From contig CABIKM010000017.1 in the NCBI GenBank assembly GCA_902196205.1, positions 1 through 56,181 of the forward strand: 56,181 nucleotides of DNA, given 5' to 3'. A model generated the notes under the pieces. That model was not told the origin of the DNA and made no database searches. It saw only the letters and a list, made by a program, of their open reading frames with translations. The translations under genes and the position numbers were made by a program. This document shows, piece after piece, positions 3,327 to 8,968 of the stretch; position 1 is the first letter of the stretch; every line of letters starts with the position of its first letter. This stretch comes from Candidatus Methylomirabilis lanthanidiphila (GTDB lineage: Bacteria > Methylomirabilota > Methylomirabilia > Methylomirabilales > Methylomirabilaceae).

Positions 3327-5339
3327 ATGCCTGGTCATGACGTAGTGAGAGATCTGCTGGCGATATTTGCCCTCTCGATCGCCGTCGTCTCTCTCTTTCA
3401 GAAGATTCGTTTGCCCTCCATTGCGGGGTTCCTTGTCGTTGGCGCACTCGTTGGGCCGTACGGCTTGAACCTGATCTCGGATCTGGATCAGATACGCGTC
3501 GTCGCCGAGATCGGTGTGGTGTTGCTTCTATTCACCATCGGGGTCGAGTTTTCGCTGGGACAACTAATCGCATCCCGCCGGCTCTTGTTGGTAGCAGGGC
3601 CTTTGCAGGTGATCTGCGTGCTGACGCTTGTCGCGATCGGCGTGACGGTGTGGGGCGTCCCGCTTCGTGAAGCCGTGTTTTGGGGCTGCCTTCTGTCGCT
3701 CAGCAGTACGGCGATTGTGCTGAAGGCCCTGGAGGAGCGTGGCGAGACCGATGCGTTGCACGGGCGTGTCACAATCAGTATTCTGATCTTTCAGGACCTG
3801 GCAGTCGTGCCGATGATGTTGCTGATCCCGCTGCTGGCCCAATCCGACGATCAGAGTATCTGGGGAATAGCGCTGCCGCTGACCACATCGGTGGCGTTTG
3901 TCGGCATGATCATCGTCACGGCGCGGTGGCTTATCCCCCGGCTGCTGGAACTCATCGTCCAGACCCAGATTCGGGAGTTATTCCTGCTTGCGATCATCGT
4001 TCTGTGTCTCGGCATCGCCTGGATCACCTCACTGACGGGCCTGTCGCTCGCACTGGGAGCGTTCATTGCAGGTCTGGTGATCTCCGAGTCCAGATACAGC
4101 CATCAGGCTATTGCCGAGGTGATCCCGTTTCGAGACAGTTTTACCAGCCTGTTCTTTGTCTCTGTCGGAATGCTCATGGATACTCGCGTCATGCTCAACC
4201 ATCCTTTCCTGATTCTCGGACTTGTCGGGGCAATCATCACGGCAAAACTGATCGGCGGTACGGCCTCAATCATCGCGATCGGCTTTCCGCCGCGAGCCGC
4301 CGTACTGAGTGGAATTGCATTGGCTCAGGTGGGAGAATTCGCCTTCATTCTGGCAGAAAAGGGGCAAGCGATCGGTCTATTAGCGGAGGAGCCGCGCCAA
4401 CTGTTTCTTGCCGTTTCGGTGTTGACCATGGTCGGTACGCCGTTTTTGATCAAGGCAGCGCCGAGGATAGCCAGACGCGCAGAGGGTCTCGATACGCTTC
4501 GGTGGTGGCTGCCGAGACAAACGGCGGCGCAGGTGGCCGCCGGGAATCCGCACCGCCTGACGATTACGGATCACGTCATCGTAGTAGGCTACGGGATTAA
4601 TGGGCGCAACCTTTCCCGCGTGCTTGAGGAGACCGGGATCCCGTACCTCATTCTGGATCAGCACGGCGAGGTTGTGCGAAGGGAGGCCGGCAAGGGTGTG
4701 CCGATTATTTACGGAGACGCGACAAATTCGACTGTACTCCGCCACGTTCGAATCGGGCAGGCGAAGGTCCTGGTCGTAGCGGTTTCGGATCCCTTGGCTG
4801 CGAGACGAATCATACAGCTCGCACGAGGTATCAATCCGACCATCCACACCATCGTGCGGACGCGCTATCTGAAGGCAGTTGACGAGCTGCTTCACCTGGG
4901 CGCGGATGAAGTGGTGCCGGAGGAGTTTGAGACCTCAATTGAGATCTTCGCCCTCGTGCTCCGAACCTATGGGATACCTCATGACCTGATCGTAGAGAAA
5001 ACCGAGCAGATCCGCGGGGAGGGGTACGAGTTGCTGCGGCGGGGGAAACTGCAGAGCGTGACCCATCACCTGCATGGCCGGGCTCTGACGGATGTTCACG
5101 TGGAGAGCGTAACGATCAAGGACGTGTCGCCTTCAGCCGGAATGACGATAGGTCAGGTATCTACAACGGCGCCCACGAGCGCCTCGATCATTGCGGTCAT
5201 CCGGAGTGGACGAACTCTTTCCCACTTATCTGAGAAGATGCATCTGGAGTCGGGTGACGTCGTGGTGTTATTGGGAACACGTGAACAGATCCGCCATGTA
5301 GCAACTATGTTGACGGACCACGAGACCGAGCGAGTATAG
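3327..5339 (+). CDS. Kef-type K+/H+ exchanger with RCK domains (CPA2 family)
   Basis: A 670-residue monovalent cation:proton antiporter of the CPA2 family. Residues about 10-385 form the multi-span exchanger domain (segment GVEFSLGQL, then LGAFIAGLVISES). A TrkA-N/RCK-N domain starts near residue 415 (HVIVVGYGINGRNL), and a TrkA-C-like domain ends the protein (residues about 575-660). Such proteins let K+ or Na+ out under nucleotide or redox control. It faces a convergent K+ uptake operon (5342-8700), so influx and efflux genes meet tail to tail with two bases between them. Start: ATG at 3327. Confidence 0.92.
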   Translation: MPGHDVVRDLLAIFALSIAVVSLFQKIRLPSIAGFLVVGALVGPYGLNLISDLDQIRVVAEIGVVLLLFTIGVEFSLGQLIASRRLLLVAGPLQVICVLTLVAIGVTVWGVPLREAVFWGCLLSLSSTAIVLKALEERGETDALHGRVTISILIFQDLAVVPMMLLIPLLAQSDDQSIWGIALPLTTSVAFVGMIIVTARWLIPRLLELIVQTQIRELFLLAIIVLCLGIAWITSLTGLSLALGAFIAGLVISESRYSHQAIAEVIPFRDSFTSLFFVSVGMLMDTRVMLNHPFLILGLVGAIITAKLIGGTASIIAIGFPPRAAVLSGIALAQVGEFAFILAEKGQAIGLLAEEPRQLFLAVSVLTMVGTPFLIKAAPRIARRAEGLDTLRWWLPRQTAAQVAAGNPHRLTITDHVIVVGYGINGRNLSRVLEETGIPYLILDQHGEVVRREAGKGVPIIYGDATNSTVLRHVRIGQAKVLVVAVSDPLAARRIIQLARGINPTIHTIVRTRYLKAVDELLHLGADEVVPEEFETSIEIFALVLRTYGIPHDLIVEKTEQIRGEGYELLRRGKLQSVTHHLHGRALTDVHVESVTIKDVSPSAGMTIGQVSTTAPTSASIIAVIRSGRTLSHLSEKMHLESGDVVVLLGTREQIRHVATMLTDHETERV

Positions 5340-5341
5340 GA

Positions 5342-6049
5342 TTACGGCCTACCCTGGTCACGCGTGTCGTCCGGCATAGGCTGATCCGGTCGGCCGAACA
5401 GCGTGGCCAGCTCTTCGGCTCCTTCATGATCTGCAATTGCGAGCACCTCATCTCCGACTTCAAATCGGGTATCGCCGCGCGGAATCAGGATCTGGCCGTG
5501 CCGGATGATGGTGGCGATGACCGAGTTCGACGGCAACGTGAGATCTTTGATGGCGACGCCCAGGGCGCGGGCTCCTGCCGGGATCTTTTCCTCCACCAGG
5601 GAGTAGCGGCCCCTGCGCAGTTTGAGCAACGTCATCATGTCGCCCAGCGACATCTCTTCTTCGATCAGGCTGCTGAAGATCTGCGCCTGATTGAGCGCCA
5701 CATCGACGTGAAACTTCTCGTCGAAGAGCCAGGCGGCGCGAGGATTATTGACCCAGGCGATGATGCGGGGCACGTTGTAGCGGGTGCGGGCAAAGAAACA
5801 GAGCGCAAGATTGTCTTCATCGACAGACGTACACGCAGCCAGTACCTTCGCCCGACCGATGCCGGCCTGTTCCAACACCTGCGGATCGATGGGGTTGCCT
5901 TCGTAGATGACTTCAGTGGGCAACTCATGGTGAAGGTTCGCGAGGACGTCGCGTCGGTGCTCGAGCAGTCGGACCTCATGCTGATGAGCCAGCAAGAGCG
6001 TGGCCAGGTGTGCAGCGGTTCGGCCTCCGCCGGCGATCAGCACAAACAT
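5342..6049 (-). CDS. TrkA-type RCK regulatory subunit (downstream copy)
   Basis: A 235-residue soluble protein. It has an N-terminal Rossmann RCK-N domain (FVLIAGGGRTAAHLA; acidic residue after beta-2 in RLLEHR) and a C-terminal TrkA-C domain (about 140-225). RCK proteins bind NAD(H), ATP/ADP or c-di-AMP and gate K+ transporters. It is the last gene of the kimA-like operon, one base after the preceding RCK gene. Two different RCK subunits in a row suggest a hetero-oligomeric gating ring; this is inference. Confidence 0.88.
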   Translation of the reverse strand: MFVLIAGGGRTAAHLATLLLAHQHEVRLLEHRRDVLANLHHELPTEVIYEGNPIDPQVLEQAGIGRAKVLAACTSVDEDNLALCFFARTRYNVPRIIAWVNNPRAAWLFDEKFHVDVALNQAQIFSSLIEEEMSLGDMMTLLKLRRGRYSLVEEKIPAGARALGVAIKDLTLPSNSVIATIIRHGQILIPRGDTRFEVGDEVLAIADHEGAEELATLFGRPDQPMPDDTRDQGRP

Positions 6050-6050
6050 G

Positions 6051-6710
6051 TTACCCCCCTTGCGGCATCGTGAGCCGCTCGCGCAACATTTCGATGCCGT
6101 CCATTGTGGAACTCAGGTGCAGAATATCGCCTGCCTCCAGACGCTCCTCCGGGCCGGGGAGCATCGCCTTGCCCGCCCGGGTCAGCGCCACGGGCAGACA
6201 CTGACTGCCATGGAGGAACTCCTGGAGGATGCGGCCATGCCAGACCTCAGGCACGGAGAGTTCATAGATTTCGACCTCGCCGTTGCCGGCCGAGAACACG
6301 CATCTGGCGAAAGAGGGATAGAGCAACTCCTCGATGCGCTGCGCGCCCCAACTGGTCGAGCTGACCACCTGGAGGCCGAATGCCTCGTGCAAGGCCCGCC
6401 AGCGTGGGTGGTAGTTGCGGACCACCACTTGGGGCACACGGTAGACGGTTCGCGCGATATGTGCGACTACCGCGTTGAGCGAGTCGGAGTTGGTGACGGC
6501 CGCCAGACCGTCGGCCTGCTCGATGCCCGCTCGGCGCAGCACATCCGTTGCCAGCACTTCGCCATGCACGGTGCGTCCGCGAAAGTCGGTCGGTAGATTA
6601 TCTAACGCCGAGGCCACCTGGTCGATGACAGCCAGTTGATGTCCCTTCTGGAATAAACGATACGCCAACTCCGCGCCTACTCGTCCACACCCGACGATGA
6701 TGATATACAT
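6051..6710 (-). CDS. TrkA-type RCK regulatory subunit (upstream copy)
   Basis: A 219-residue protein with RCK-N (MYIIIVGCGRVGAELAYRL, GxGxxG nucleotide loop, Asp in VIDQVA) and TrkA-C (about 135-215). It lies 34 bases after the KimA-like transporter gene and directly before a second RCK gene, on the same strand. It differs clearly from the downstream copy, so this is not a recent duplication. The likely role is nucleotide-dependent control of K+ uptake at the membrane. Confidence 0.9.
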   Translation of the reverse strand: MYIIIVGCGRVGAELAYRLFQKGHQLAVIDQVASALDNLPTDFRGRTVHGEVLATDVLRRAGIEQADGLAAVTNSDSLNAVVAHIARTVYRVPQVVVRNYHPRWRALHEAFGLQVVSSTSWGAQRIEELLYPSFARCVFSAGNGEVEIYELSVPEVWHGRILQEFLHGSQCLPVALTRAGKAMLPGPEERLEAGDILHLSSTMDGIEMLRERLTMPQGG

Positions 6711-6744
6711 AGCGTGGTCTGTTCCTCCGATACCCTTGCCGCTA

Positions 6745-8700
6745 TCACTCTATTTGATAGGGTACGTCGGTAATGACGATTCCCGGTTTAAACAACAGCA
6801 TCAGTCGCAACCACATGGCAGTCTGGGTGTGTAGGAAGTTGTGCCACCAGCGGCGGGGGACAAACTGCGGCACGATGATCGTGATGATTTCGTTCGGCTG
6901 GCGCTGCGCCGCGATCTCCTCAATGTACCCTAACAAGGGTTCCAGAAGCAATCGATACGGGGAATCGAGCACGACCAGACGGACCCCATCGCCCCACGAT
7001 TCCCACTTGCGGCGCAGACTGTCGATTTCCGCCTGATCCATGCCGATATGCACGGCCGTGATGTCATCGGAAAGCGTGCGGGCGTAGCGGAGCGCCGCCA
7101 ACGTGCCGCGGTGAACGCCGCTGAGCGGCAGGATCACCCGCTGGCGAGTGACGCGGCCCGGCGCGCCATATCGTTCAAGCGACAGACGCGCGGCCAGATC
7201 GCGGTAATGATAATGGATGGCAAAGAAGACGAGGGTGAGGAGGGGGATCAAGAACATCACGATCCACGCCCCCTCGTGAAACTTTGTCACGGCAAAGACC
7301 AGCGTCACGACGGCCGTACAGCATGCGCCAAAGCCGTTGATCGCCATCTTCAGCGCCCAGCGCGGTTCGTAGCGGAGTGTTGAGCCGCGCTCGGTCGCTT
7401 CCTCACCGGGTCTGAGACGGCCGACCTTCCACCAACGGTGCGCCATCCCGGCCTGCGCCAGCGTGAACGAGACGAATACTCCGATCGCATAGAGGGGGAT
7501 CAATGTATTGACGCTGGCGCCAAACAGGACGATCAGGCCTGACGCCACGAGGGCCAGCGCCACGATGCCCCGTGAATAGACGAGCCGGCTCCCGCGATAG
7601 GTAAGCTGTCTGGGCAGAAAGCCATCCTCTGCGAGCAGGGCGCTGAGCCGCGGAAAGCCGGCGAACGACGTGTTGGCGGCCATAATCAGGATAAGCGTCG
7701 TACCGCCGATGGTCGCCAGATACAGCAGACCCCTTCCGCCGTATGCCGTCCGCGCCAGTTGTGAGATGATCGTTTCGGTTTCCGAAGGGATCGCGCCGAT
7801 CTTGCCGGTCAGAAAGGTGATACTGAAGAACAGGATACCCAGGATAACGGACATCCAGATCATGGTAATGCCGGCGTTGCGGCTGCGGGGCTCCTTAAAT
7901 GCCGTGACCCCGTTCGAGATGGCCTCGATGCCGGTCAGCGCGGTGGTGCCGTTGGAAAAGGCGTGGAGAATCAAAAATAGCGCGACCGACTGCAGGTGGG
8001 GCTCTTTCTCCAGATGAGGCGGGTTCTCAACGATCCCGAGATCGCCCATCAGATACCGAAGGGCGCCGCTGCCGACTGTCAGCAGGATGATCCCCAGGAA
8101 GAAATAGCTGGGGATGGCGAGGATCGCCCCGGATTCTCTGACGCCCCGAAGATTGATGACCATCATCATCAGCACCATGGCGACCGCCAGCAGCACGCGA
8201 TGATTGAAGAGAAACGGGAACGCCGAAGACATCTGGGCGACACCGGACGCCACGGAGACGGCGACGGTTAAGATGTAATCAACGAGCAGTGCCGCACCCG
8301 CAATCTGGGATGGCGCCTCTCCCAGGTTGTCACGGGCGACGATATAGGCGCCGCCGCCCCCGGGATAGGCATGGATGGTCTGCTCATAGGAGAGCGTGAC
8401 AATGGCCAGCAGCGCTACGATGGCCAGTGAAATCGGGAGGGCATAGACGAACGCAGCGGTTCCGGCAGCGGCCAGCACGAACAGGATCTCATCCGTGGCA
8501 TAGGCGGTAGACGAGAGTGCATCGGATGCAAACACGGCCAGCCCGACGGCTTTGCCGATGGTCTGATGGGGCGCGTCGGCGGTTCGAAGTGGCCGCCCGA
8601 TCAGCCAGGTTCGCCAGGAGCCAGGCGGCTGGTATTTGGTGGTTCGTCGCAAGAGAGCCGTTTCGCTCTCTTTTTTGAGTGCGGGCACAGATTGCCTCAC
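6745..8700 (-). CDS. kimA: KimA-like APC-superfamily K+ transporter
   Basis: A 651-residue membrane protein with about 12 hydrophobic spans and a cytosolic C-terminal domain of roughly 170 residues. Motifs match the KUP/KimA group: ASDALSSTAYATDEIL, YPGGGGAYIVARDNLG, DYILTVAVSVASG and TGIEAISNG. The pairs Asp60/Tyr67, Asp/Thr in DYILT and Thr/Glu in TGIE have the spacing I recall for the K+ sites of Bacillus KimA (D36/Y43, D117/T121, T230/E233). The two RCK genes that follow support K+ uptake over amino-acid transport. The N-terminus is about 25 residues longer than Bacillus KimA, and the true start may lie downstream of 8700. Confidence 0.85.
   Translation of the reverse strand: MRQSVPALKKESETALLRRTTKYQPPGSWRTWLIGRPLRTADAPHQTIGKAVGLAVFASDALSSTAYATDEILFVLAAAGTAAFVYALPISLAIVALLAIVTLSYEQTIHAYPGGGGAYIVARDNLGEAPSQIAGAALLVDYILTVAVSVASGVAQMSSAFPFLFNHRVLLAVAMVLMMMVINLRGVRESGAILAIPSYFFLGIILLTVGSGALRYLMGDLGIVENPPHLEKEPHLQSVALFLILHAFSNGTTALTGIEAISNGVTAFKEPRSRNAGITMIWMSVILGILFFSITFLTGKIGAIPSETETIISQLARTAYGGRGLLYLATIGGTTLILIMAANTSFAGFPRLSALLAEDGFLPRQLTYRGSRLVYSRGIVALALVASGLIVLFGASVNTLIPLYAIGVFVSFTLAQAGMAHRWWKVGRLRPGEEATERGSTLRYEPRWALKMAINGFGACCTAVVTLVFAVTKFHEGAWIVMFLIPLLTLVFFAIHYHYRDLAARLSLERYGAPGRVTRQRVILPLSGVHRGTLAALRYARTLSDDITAVHIGMDQAEIDSLRRKWESWGDGVRLVVLDSPYRLLLEPLLGYIEEIAAQRQPNEIITIIVPQFVPRRWWHNFLHTQTAMWLRLMLLFKPGIVITDVPYQIE
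8651..8676 (+). terminator. terminator-like hairpin antisense to the 5' end of the KimA-like gene
   Basis: A perfect 8-bp stem (AAGAGAGC / GCTCTCTT) with a 6-base loop runs directly into a T-run on the plus strand. It lies inside the first 17 codons of the minus-strand transporter gene, in the part of the N-terminus that looks longer than in relatives. It could stop antisense transcripts. On the sense strand the A-run precedes the stem, so it is not a normal terminator for the operon. Confidence 0.4.
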
Positions 8701-8968
8701 GATACGGTGTGCAGGATCAACAGGGTTGGTTGGTCGCCTGCACGCTTACATGCTTGCAAGGATGCTATCCCGGTCAGCGTATTCCGTCAAGTTGGCAGGC
8801 GTCATACTGAAGACCTTCGCTCGCACATGTCTATTCGTGTGATAGCATAGAGCCTGAAGAGTACGGAATTCAGCAAAATCGGCTCAATCTAGCCACTCTC
8901 CTTGAGCCTGTCAAGTATTATTCCGCGTGGAGACAACCGGCACAATGCGCCCGAGAGAGGAGGAGCCG

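Follow-up and report, generated by a model that had tools for sequence, protein, structure and literature searches.

KimA of Bacillus subtilis is described as a K+ transporter controlled by cyclic di-adenosine monophosphate (c-di-AMP), a dimer with a c-di-AMP brake in its cytosolic domains (PMC10284832; this and the other papers given by PMC number are cited for their accessible passages), and KimA functions without RCK proteins in Escherichia coli complementation (PMC6994465). RCK subunits have been described chiefly for channels and exchangers: with ATP, TrkA causes TrkH to open, and with ADP to close (PMC6987127), and in KhtTU and CpeAB a cation/H+ antiporter is paired with one separate c-di-AMP-binding RCK_C protein (PMC10117811). 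CeoB and CeoC of Mycobacterium tuberculosis are treated as a K+ uptake system ('Trk'), for which the accessible passages of PMC6375644, PMC4553272 and PMC12136442 name no TrkH or other membrane subunit. Here a 56,181-nucleotide contig of Candidatus Methylomirabilis lanthanidiphila (CABIKM010000017.1, assembly GCA_902196205.1; the whole stretch is referred to as the window) was analysed, in which a gene for a KimA-type transporter is followed by two genes for RCK proteins, named RckA and RckB. From the sequence, it is considered probable that KimA, importing K+ together with protons, works as a single K+ uptake system with a split-TrkA regulator of its own, which acts besides c-di-AMP. The transporter and the type of regulator are both known; their combination was not found described, and no report of KimA gated by RCK subunits was found in the accessible literature on KimA, RCK, CeoB and Rv2690c, which took in few subscription journals. 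The three genes are as follows.

6745..8700, minus strand: KimA-type K+/H+ symporter; open reading frame of 651 amino acids with a GTG start, comprising an APC/KUP-fold membrane domain and a C-terminal cytosolic domain with c-di-AMP pocket residues.
6051..6710, minus strand: RckA; open reading frame of 219 amino acids with TrkA_N and TrkA_C domains and a GCGRVG...D nucleotide-binding motif.
5342..6049, minus strand: RckB; open reading frame of 235 amino acids with TrkA_N and TrkA_C domains and a GGGRTA...E motif.

Transcription runs in the order KimA, RckA, RckB, with intergenic gaps of 34 bp and then 1 bp, and both RCK genes are preceded by good ribosome-binding sequences (GGAGG ahead of RckA and AAGGGGGG ahead of RckB). 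The orthologous trio was detected in 13 of the 15 genomes of the genus. It was contiguous in 12, the window included, and split by a contig end in one (G029), where KimA lies at the end of one contig and the RCK pair at the start of another; in the remaining two (G022 and G028) close KimA and close RckA were both missing. The arrangement is not due to chance, because 12 genomes of the genus keep the genes and their order on one contig. The trio is a real and conserved three-gene K+ uptake unit, with transport predicted for the window copy.

The only family reported by Pfam for the transporter was AA_permease_2, a label which by itself would say amino-acid permease. However, no sequence in the PDB other than B. 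subtilis KimA (6s3k; phmmer, E 3.2e-144) matched it at E<=0.001, and the 620-residue alignment spans residues 30-649 of the window protein and 6-604 of KimA, cytosolic domain included, which represents homology over nearly the whole length. The residues of the K+ site and those for the proton, with roles as given in PMC6994465 and PMC10284832, are all kept in this alignment (KimA D36, Y43, T121, T230, Y377 and E233, corresponding to window D60, Y67, T145, T256, Y404 and E259). The earlier note had recognized a KimA-type transporter by the spacing of residue pairs, and that assignment can now be placed on alignment with a solved KimA. It had named placement among amino-acid permeases as the outcome that would speak against it, and this was not what was found; that the protein is an amino-acid permease and no K+ importer is, given the solved relative and the retained residues, very improbable indeed.

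The pocket for c-di-AMP, whose residues have roles given in the same two papers, is also largely retained, with R337, P479, H579 and Q581 identical (window R364, P525, H624 and Q626) and V506, N580 and S582 altered to similar or polar residues (I552, T625 and T627). In an alignment of 90 KimA rows from the phylum, 88 have arginine at R337, and all 90 have histidine at H579 and glutamine at Q581, whether or not RCK genes lie nearby. The window genome (99.98% complete) also encodes a DAC-domain diadenylate cyclase, the c-di-AMP synthase. Control by RCK proteins in place of c-di-AMP was rejected in that form, because the pocket residues are kept and the cyclase is encoded. A search for the ydaO riboswitch found none, and the single match in the region was to a snoRNA family far below its cut-off. 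In comparison with the solved structures (PDB 6s3k, 8b70 and 8b71), the window copy shares the K+ and proton residues and the cytosolic pocket, and differs by an N-terminal extension, by a longer loop between transmembrane segments (TM) 10 and 11, and by the added pair of RCK genes. The extension and the TM10-11 insert were considered as markers of RCK docking and rejected, both being present in an RCK-free paralogue of the same genus (L054).

Two distinct RCK genes do follow the transporter, as the earlier note had read them, with TrkA_N and TrkA_C above the Pfam cut-offs in each. RckA had TM1088A (E 4e-18) and the N-terminal half of TrkA among its best PDB relatives, and RckB matched TrkA (E 3e-33) and TM1088B (E 2.8e-22). 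PDB entry 3l4b lists TM1088A and TM1088B as chains of one entry, RckA matching the former chain and RckB the latter. The final acidic residue of the Rossmann motif is aspartate in RckA and glutamate in RckB. The c-di-AMP signature of RCK_C domains, (I/L)(I/L)X2DXRX5N(I/L)(I/L) as taken from PMC10117811, had no match in RckA or RckB, even with a relaxed pattern. The likeness to KhtTU and CpeAB would be that of a carrier regulated by a separate RCK protein; RckA and RckB differ in lacking the signature. With TrkH-TrkA and Ktr systems the pair shares its TrkA-related RCK proteins, whereas the halves are separate genes here, the proposed partner in the membrane is a carrier of the APC fold and no channel, and the genome has no TrkH or KtrB.

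TrkH/KtrB (PF02386) was not found in the window genome by a search that matched in 11 of 14 control genomes, and no Kup was found there. KdpA is encoded, and the importers recovered by these genome searches were KimA and Kdp. TrkH was also undetected in all 15 genomes of the genus, and was present in 10 of the 95 genomes of the phylum. An RCK pair in a genome without the canonical TrkH partner makes KimA its natural partner. TrkA_N was above cut-off at five places in the genome, these being the Kef-type exchanger beside the trio, RckA, RckB, a 343-residue frame on contig 6 and a weak match on contig 22. The contig 6 frame (G000:C6:54803-55150, L032) gave the strongest TrkA_N match of the genome and is possibly a K+ channel.

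KimA relatives (E <= 1e-30) were present in 81 of the 95 genomes of the phylum, and 80 stretches around such relatives, a subset of all matches, were examined. RckA-RckB lay beside KimA in 16, comprising 11 loci of the genus and five of f2, another family of the phylum. In f2 the pair, in the order RckA-RckB, is directly upstream of KimA in all five genomes with a close RckA, and a second KimA is next in most. Tandem duplication of KimA is frequent in the phylum (L070, L080, L114 and L119, and the f2 loci L068, L087, L097 and L098), and heterodimers would be possible where such copies occur.

Scanning contigs with an RckA alignment gave 455 confirmed relatives farther afield, and the 80 best were inspected, three of which were f2 genomes already counted. 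The flanks of these 80 showed KimA in 44, a cation P-type ATPase in 16, TrkH in five and none of these in 15, several of the last being short contigs; the TrkH and ATPase calls were confirmed by Pfam on examples. Searching 49 genomes of these loci detected TrkH in 24, and 12 of the 23 KimA-linked loci in the searched genomes were in genomes without TrkH. The linkage was regular in the actinobacterial family that contains Nocardia. Of 151 genomes sampled evenly from a larger group there, 122 had RckA, 126 had KimA and 46 had TrkH. All 122 RckA genes were within 2 kb of KimA and divergent from it, at a distance of 64-798 bp (median 157 bp). TrkH was missing from 96 of these 122 genomes, and four genomes had a KimA match and no RckA. 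TrkH was rarer in genomes with RckA (26 of 122 against 20 of 29; Fisher p 1.9e-6, uncorrected for kinship). In this family the three genes are regularly found together, though ordered differently, and the arrangement is no local peculiarity, where the earlier note had envisaged a new regulatory design. That the RCK pair belongs to KimA is very probable, with no TrkH in the genome and the linkage maintained both within the genus and in two other bacterial groups. Among 102 records with plasmid-borne KimA, nine matches were examined and six scanned for RCK genes, the Listeria record, which is unannotated in that stretch, being left out of the scan; of the six, only the Nonomuraea record had an RCK pair, and the annotation 4 kb around two Bacillaceae plasmid KimA genes listed no RCK gene.

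In a KimA tree of 50 rows the RCK-linked copies required at least six changes of label and a single clade was rejected (approximately unbiased test, p 7e-58), the tree being a quick search that includes a single very long row (L249), so that the number of changes holds under that model only. A Chloroflexota locus with the order KimA-KimA-RckA-RckB (L142) fell within the KimA group of the window (support 100, starred), and in a tree of 44 RckA rows it was sister to the window genus (support 92, unstarred). In the latter tree the TrkH-linked RckA formed one clade (support 100, starred) and KimA-linked rows required three changes. L142 is near the window in both trees, and on the evidence of the two trees partner and regulator tend to travel together.

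In M. tuberculosis two single-RCK proteins, CeoB and CeoC, are likewise encoded beside a membrane protein, Rv2690c, which is putatively KimA-like, an assignment to which the survey of the Nocardia family lends indirect support only. The gene order there is divergent, in contrast to the co-directional order of the window. A transposon study reports better survival in rifampicin when either ceoB or its neighbour Rv2690 is hit, and assigns the two genes to the Trk system (PMC12216072), and Rv2690c and ceoB are both in a preprint's table of mutation-enriched regions (PMC13308281). The accessible passages of PMC13163235 on CeoB and CeoC mention none of TrkH, Rv2690 and KimA. In Streptomyces venezuelae the KimA-like Vnz_27465 and the RCK_C protein Vnz_27460 are listed apart and unlinked in the accessible text of PMC10117811; their adjacent locus numbers suggest the same linkage.

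The surroundings of the trio contain the following features.

8886..8914, minus strand: promoter-like site TTGACA-17-TAGATT upstream of KimA, a consensus match only.
8762-8790, minus strand: weaker promoter-like site upstream of KimA, a consensus match only.
3327..5339, plus strand: Kef-type cation/H+ exchanger with its own RCK domain, from open reading frame and Pfam; judged to be outside the system.

The better sigma-70-like match is ∼190 bp 5' of the KimA start, and the consensus scan gave four matches in the region against 0.9 expected. The Kef gene does face the operon, as the earlier note had described, being convergent with it and separated from RckB by 2 bp. Its inclusion in the design did not hold up: nine of the 11 other trio loci of the genus extend at least 3.3 kb beyond RckB, and Kef was found in one of these (L044) and in none of the other eight. 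Kef was rejected as a member of the unit, and this neighbour is incidental. In the G029 fragment (L246) a hydrolase, GpsA and Lgt, named by resemblance to the first genes of the window, come directly after RckB; judging by this sequence, the window Kef gene (3327-5339) may have been inserted between the alpha/beta hydrolase and RckB.

In the proposed mechanism RckA and RckB would each supply one half of a gating assembly of the TrkA kind, and their Rossmann domains would bind adenine nucleotides, either NAD(H) or ATP/ADP. The two separate proteins would assemble together and attach to the KimA dimer from its cytosolic side, adjusting its activity to the energy or redox state, and c-di-AMP in the cytosolic domain of KimA itself would act as a second, separate brake. 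The complex, its ligand and the direction of control are predictions made on sequence grounds.

Several observations weigh against this dedicated regulation of KimA, and linkage is in any case no proof of binding. No RCK gene was found near 64 of the 80 examined KimA loci of the phylum, and KimA therefore does not need RCK proteins; a paralogue in the same genus, ∼74% identical, is without RCK in its examined flanks (L053-L060, eight stretches). Comparison of RCK-linked copies with this paralogue gave no clear docking signature, with seven group-fixed positions and a cytosolic enrichment of p 0.09. Related pairs beside P-type ATPases or TrkH show that this type of pair is not specific to KimA, and 26 of the 122 RckA genomes of the Nocardia family carry TrkH too. 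The RCK_C domain of Vnz_27460 does not bind c-di-AMP according to PMC10117811. The RCK-free paralogue also gives a natural reference within the genus against which the contribution of RCK control could be judged.

The pair may instead regulate another transporter, such as a two-TM K+ channel or Kef, the operon serving co-expression for K+ homeostasis. The relation to TrkA, the pairs found elsewhere beside TrkH, the convergent Kef neighbour and the 343-residue TrkA_N protein on contig 6 fit with this, but TrkH is missing throughout the genus, Kef has its own RCK and adjoins the trio only in the window and L044, and distantly related bacteria keep RckA next to KimA in three different gene orders; we consider this explanation unlikely. 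RCK domains are general ligand-binding modules, and RckA and RckB might control the expression, localization or turnover of KimA, or be stand-alone nucleotide sensors, with no gating involved. The scarcity of RCK genes at KimA loci of the phylum and the function of KimA without RCK in E. coli (PMC6994465) are in keeping with such a role. Relatives of the pair nevertheless adjoin transporters of three kinds among the best 80 of 455, and Pfam reported no DNA-binding domain, which makes the absence of gating distinctly improbable, more so than a different transporter as the target. Dedicated regulation of KimA by RckA and RckB remains the preferred reading.

If dedicated regulation is correct, a widespread family of carriers would come under RCK subunits, and CeoBC of M. 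tuberculosis would gain a membrane subunit, Rv2690c, unnamed in the accessible passages of the four papers on that system (PMC6375644, PMC4553272, PMC12136442 and PMC13163235). The trio may thus name the missing membrane part of the CeoBC K+ uptake system in relatives of the tuberculosis bacterium. The interest lies in this assignment of a partner, by which the membrane subunit of CeoBC-type systems becomes directly testable. A broader proposal, possible and held tentatively, is that split RckA/RckB is a portable gating module, separately attached to cation movers that differ in mechanism, namely TrkH channels, the carrier KimA, other APC permeases and P-type ATPases, with KimA as the real membrane partner of CeoBC and a carrier both gated by RCK and controlled by c-di-AMP.

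The 16 RckA-RckB loci linked to P-type ATPases (L129, L131-L135, L137-L141, L143, L146, L148, L149 and L152; Cation_ATPase_C and E1-E2 families) were mostly from Chloroflexota and actinobacterial assemblies, and an RCK-regulated P-type ATPase would be unusual. An apparent fusion of P-type ATPase and RckA in L152 was rejected, the long open reading frame being a stop-poor frame with no fused ATPase. Two other genomes of the phylum, G028 and G013, have a non-KimA APC permease of ∼530-550 amino acids (AA_permease_2 and AA_permease) next to split RCK genes, and in a Chloroflexota contig such a permease is near, rather than beside, the pair; the loci are L245:4906-8092 (minus strand), L243:577-4144 (plus strand) and L135:4986-9221 (plus strand). 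In G008 a split RCK pair without KimA lies 3' of a PiT (PHO4) phosphate transporter, and a similar pair is present in G012 (loci L241 and L242).

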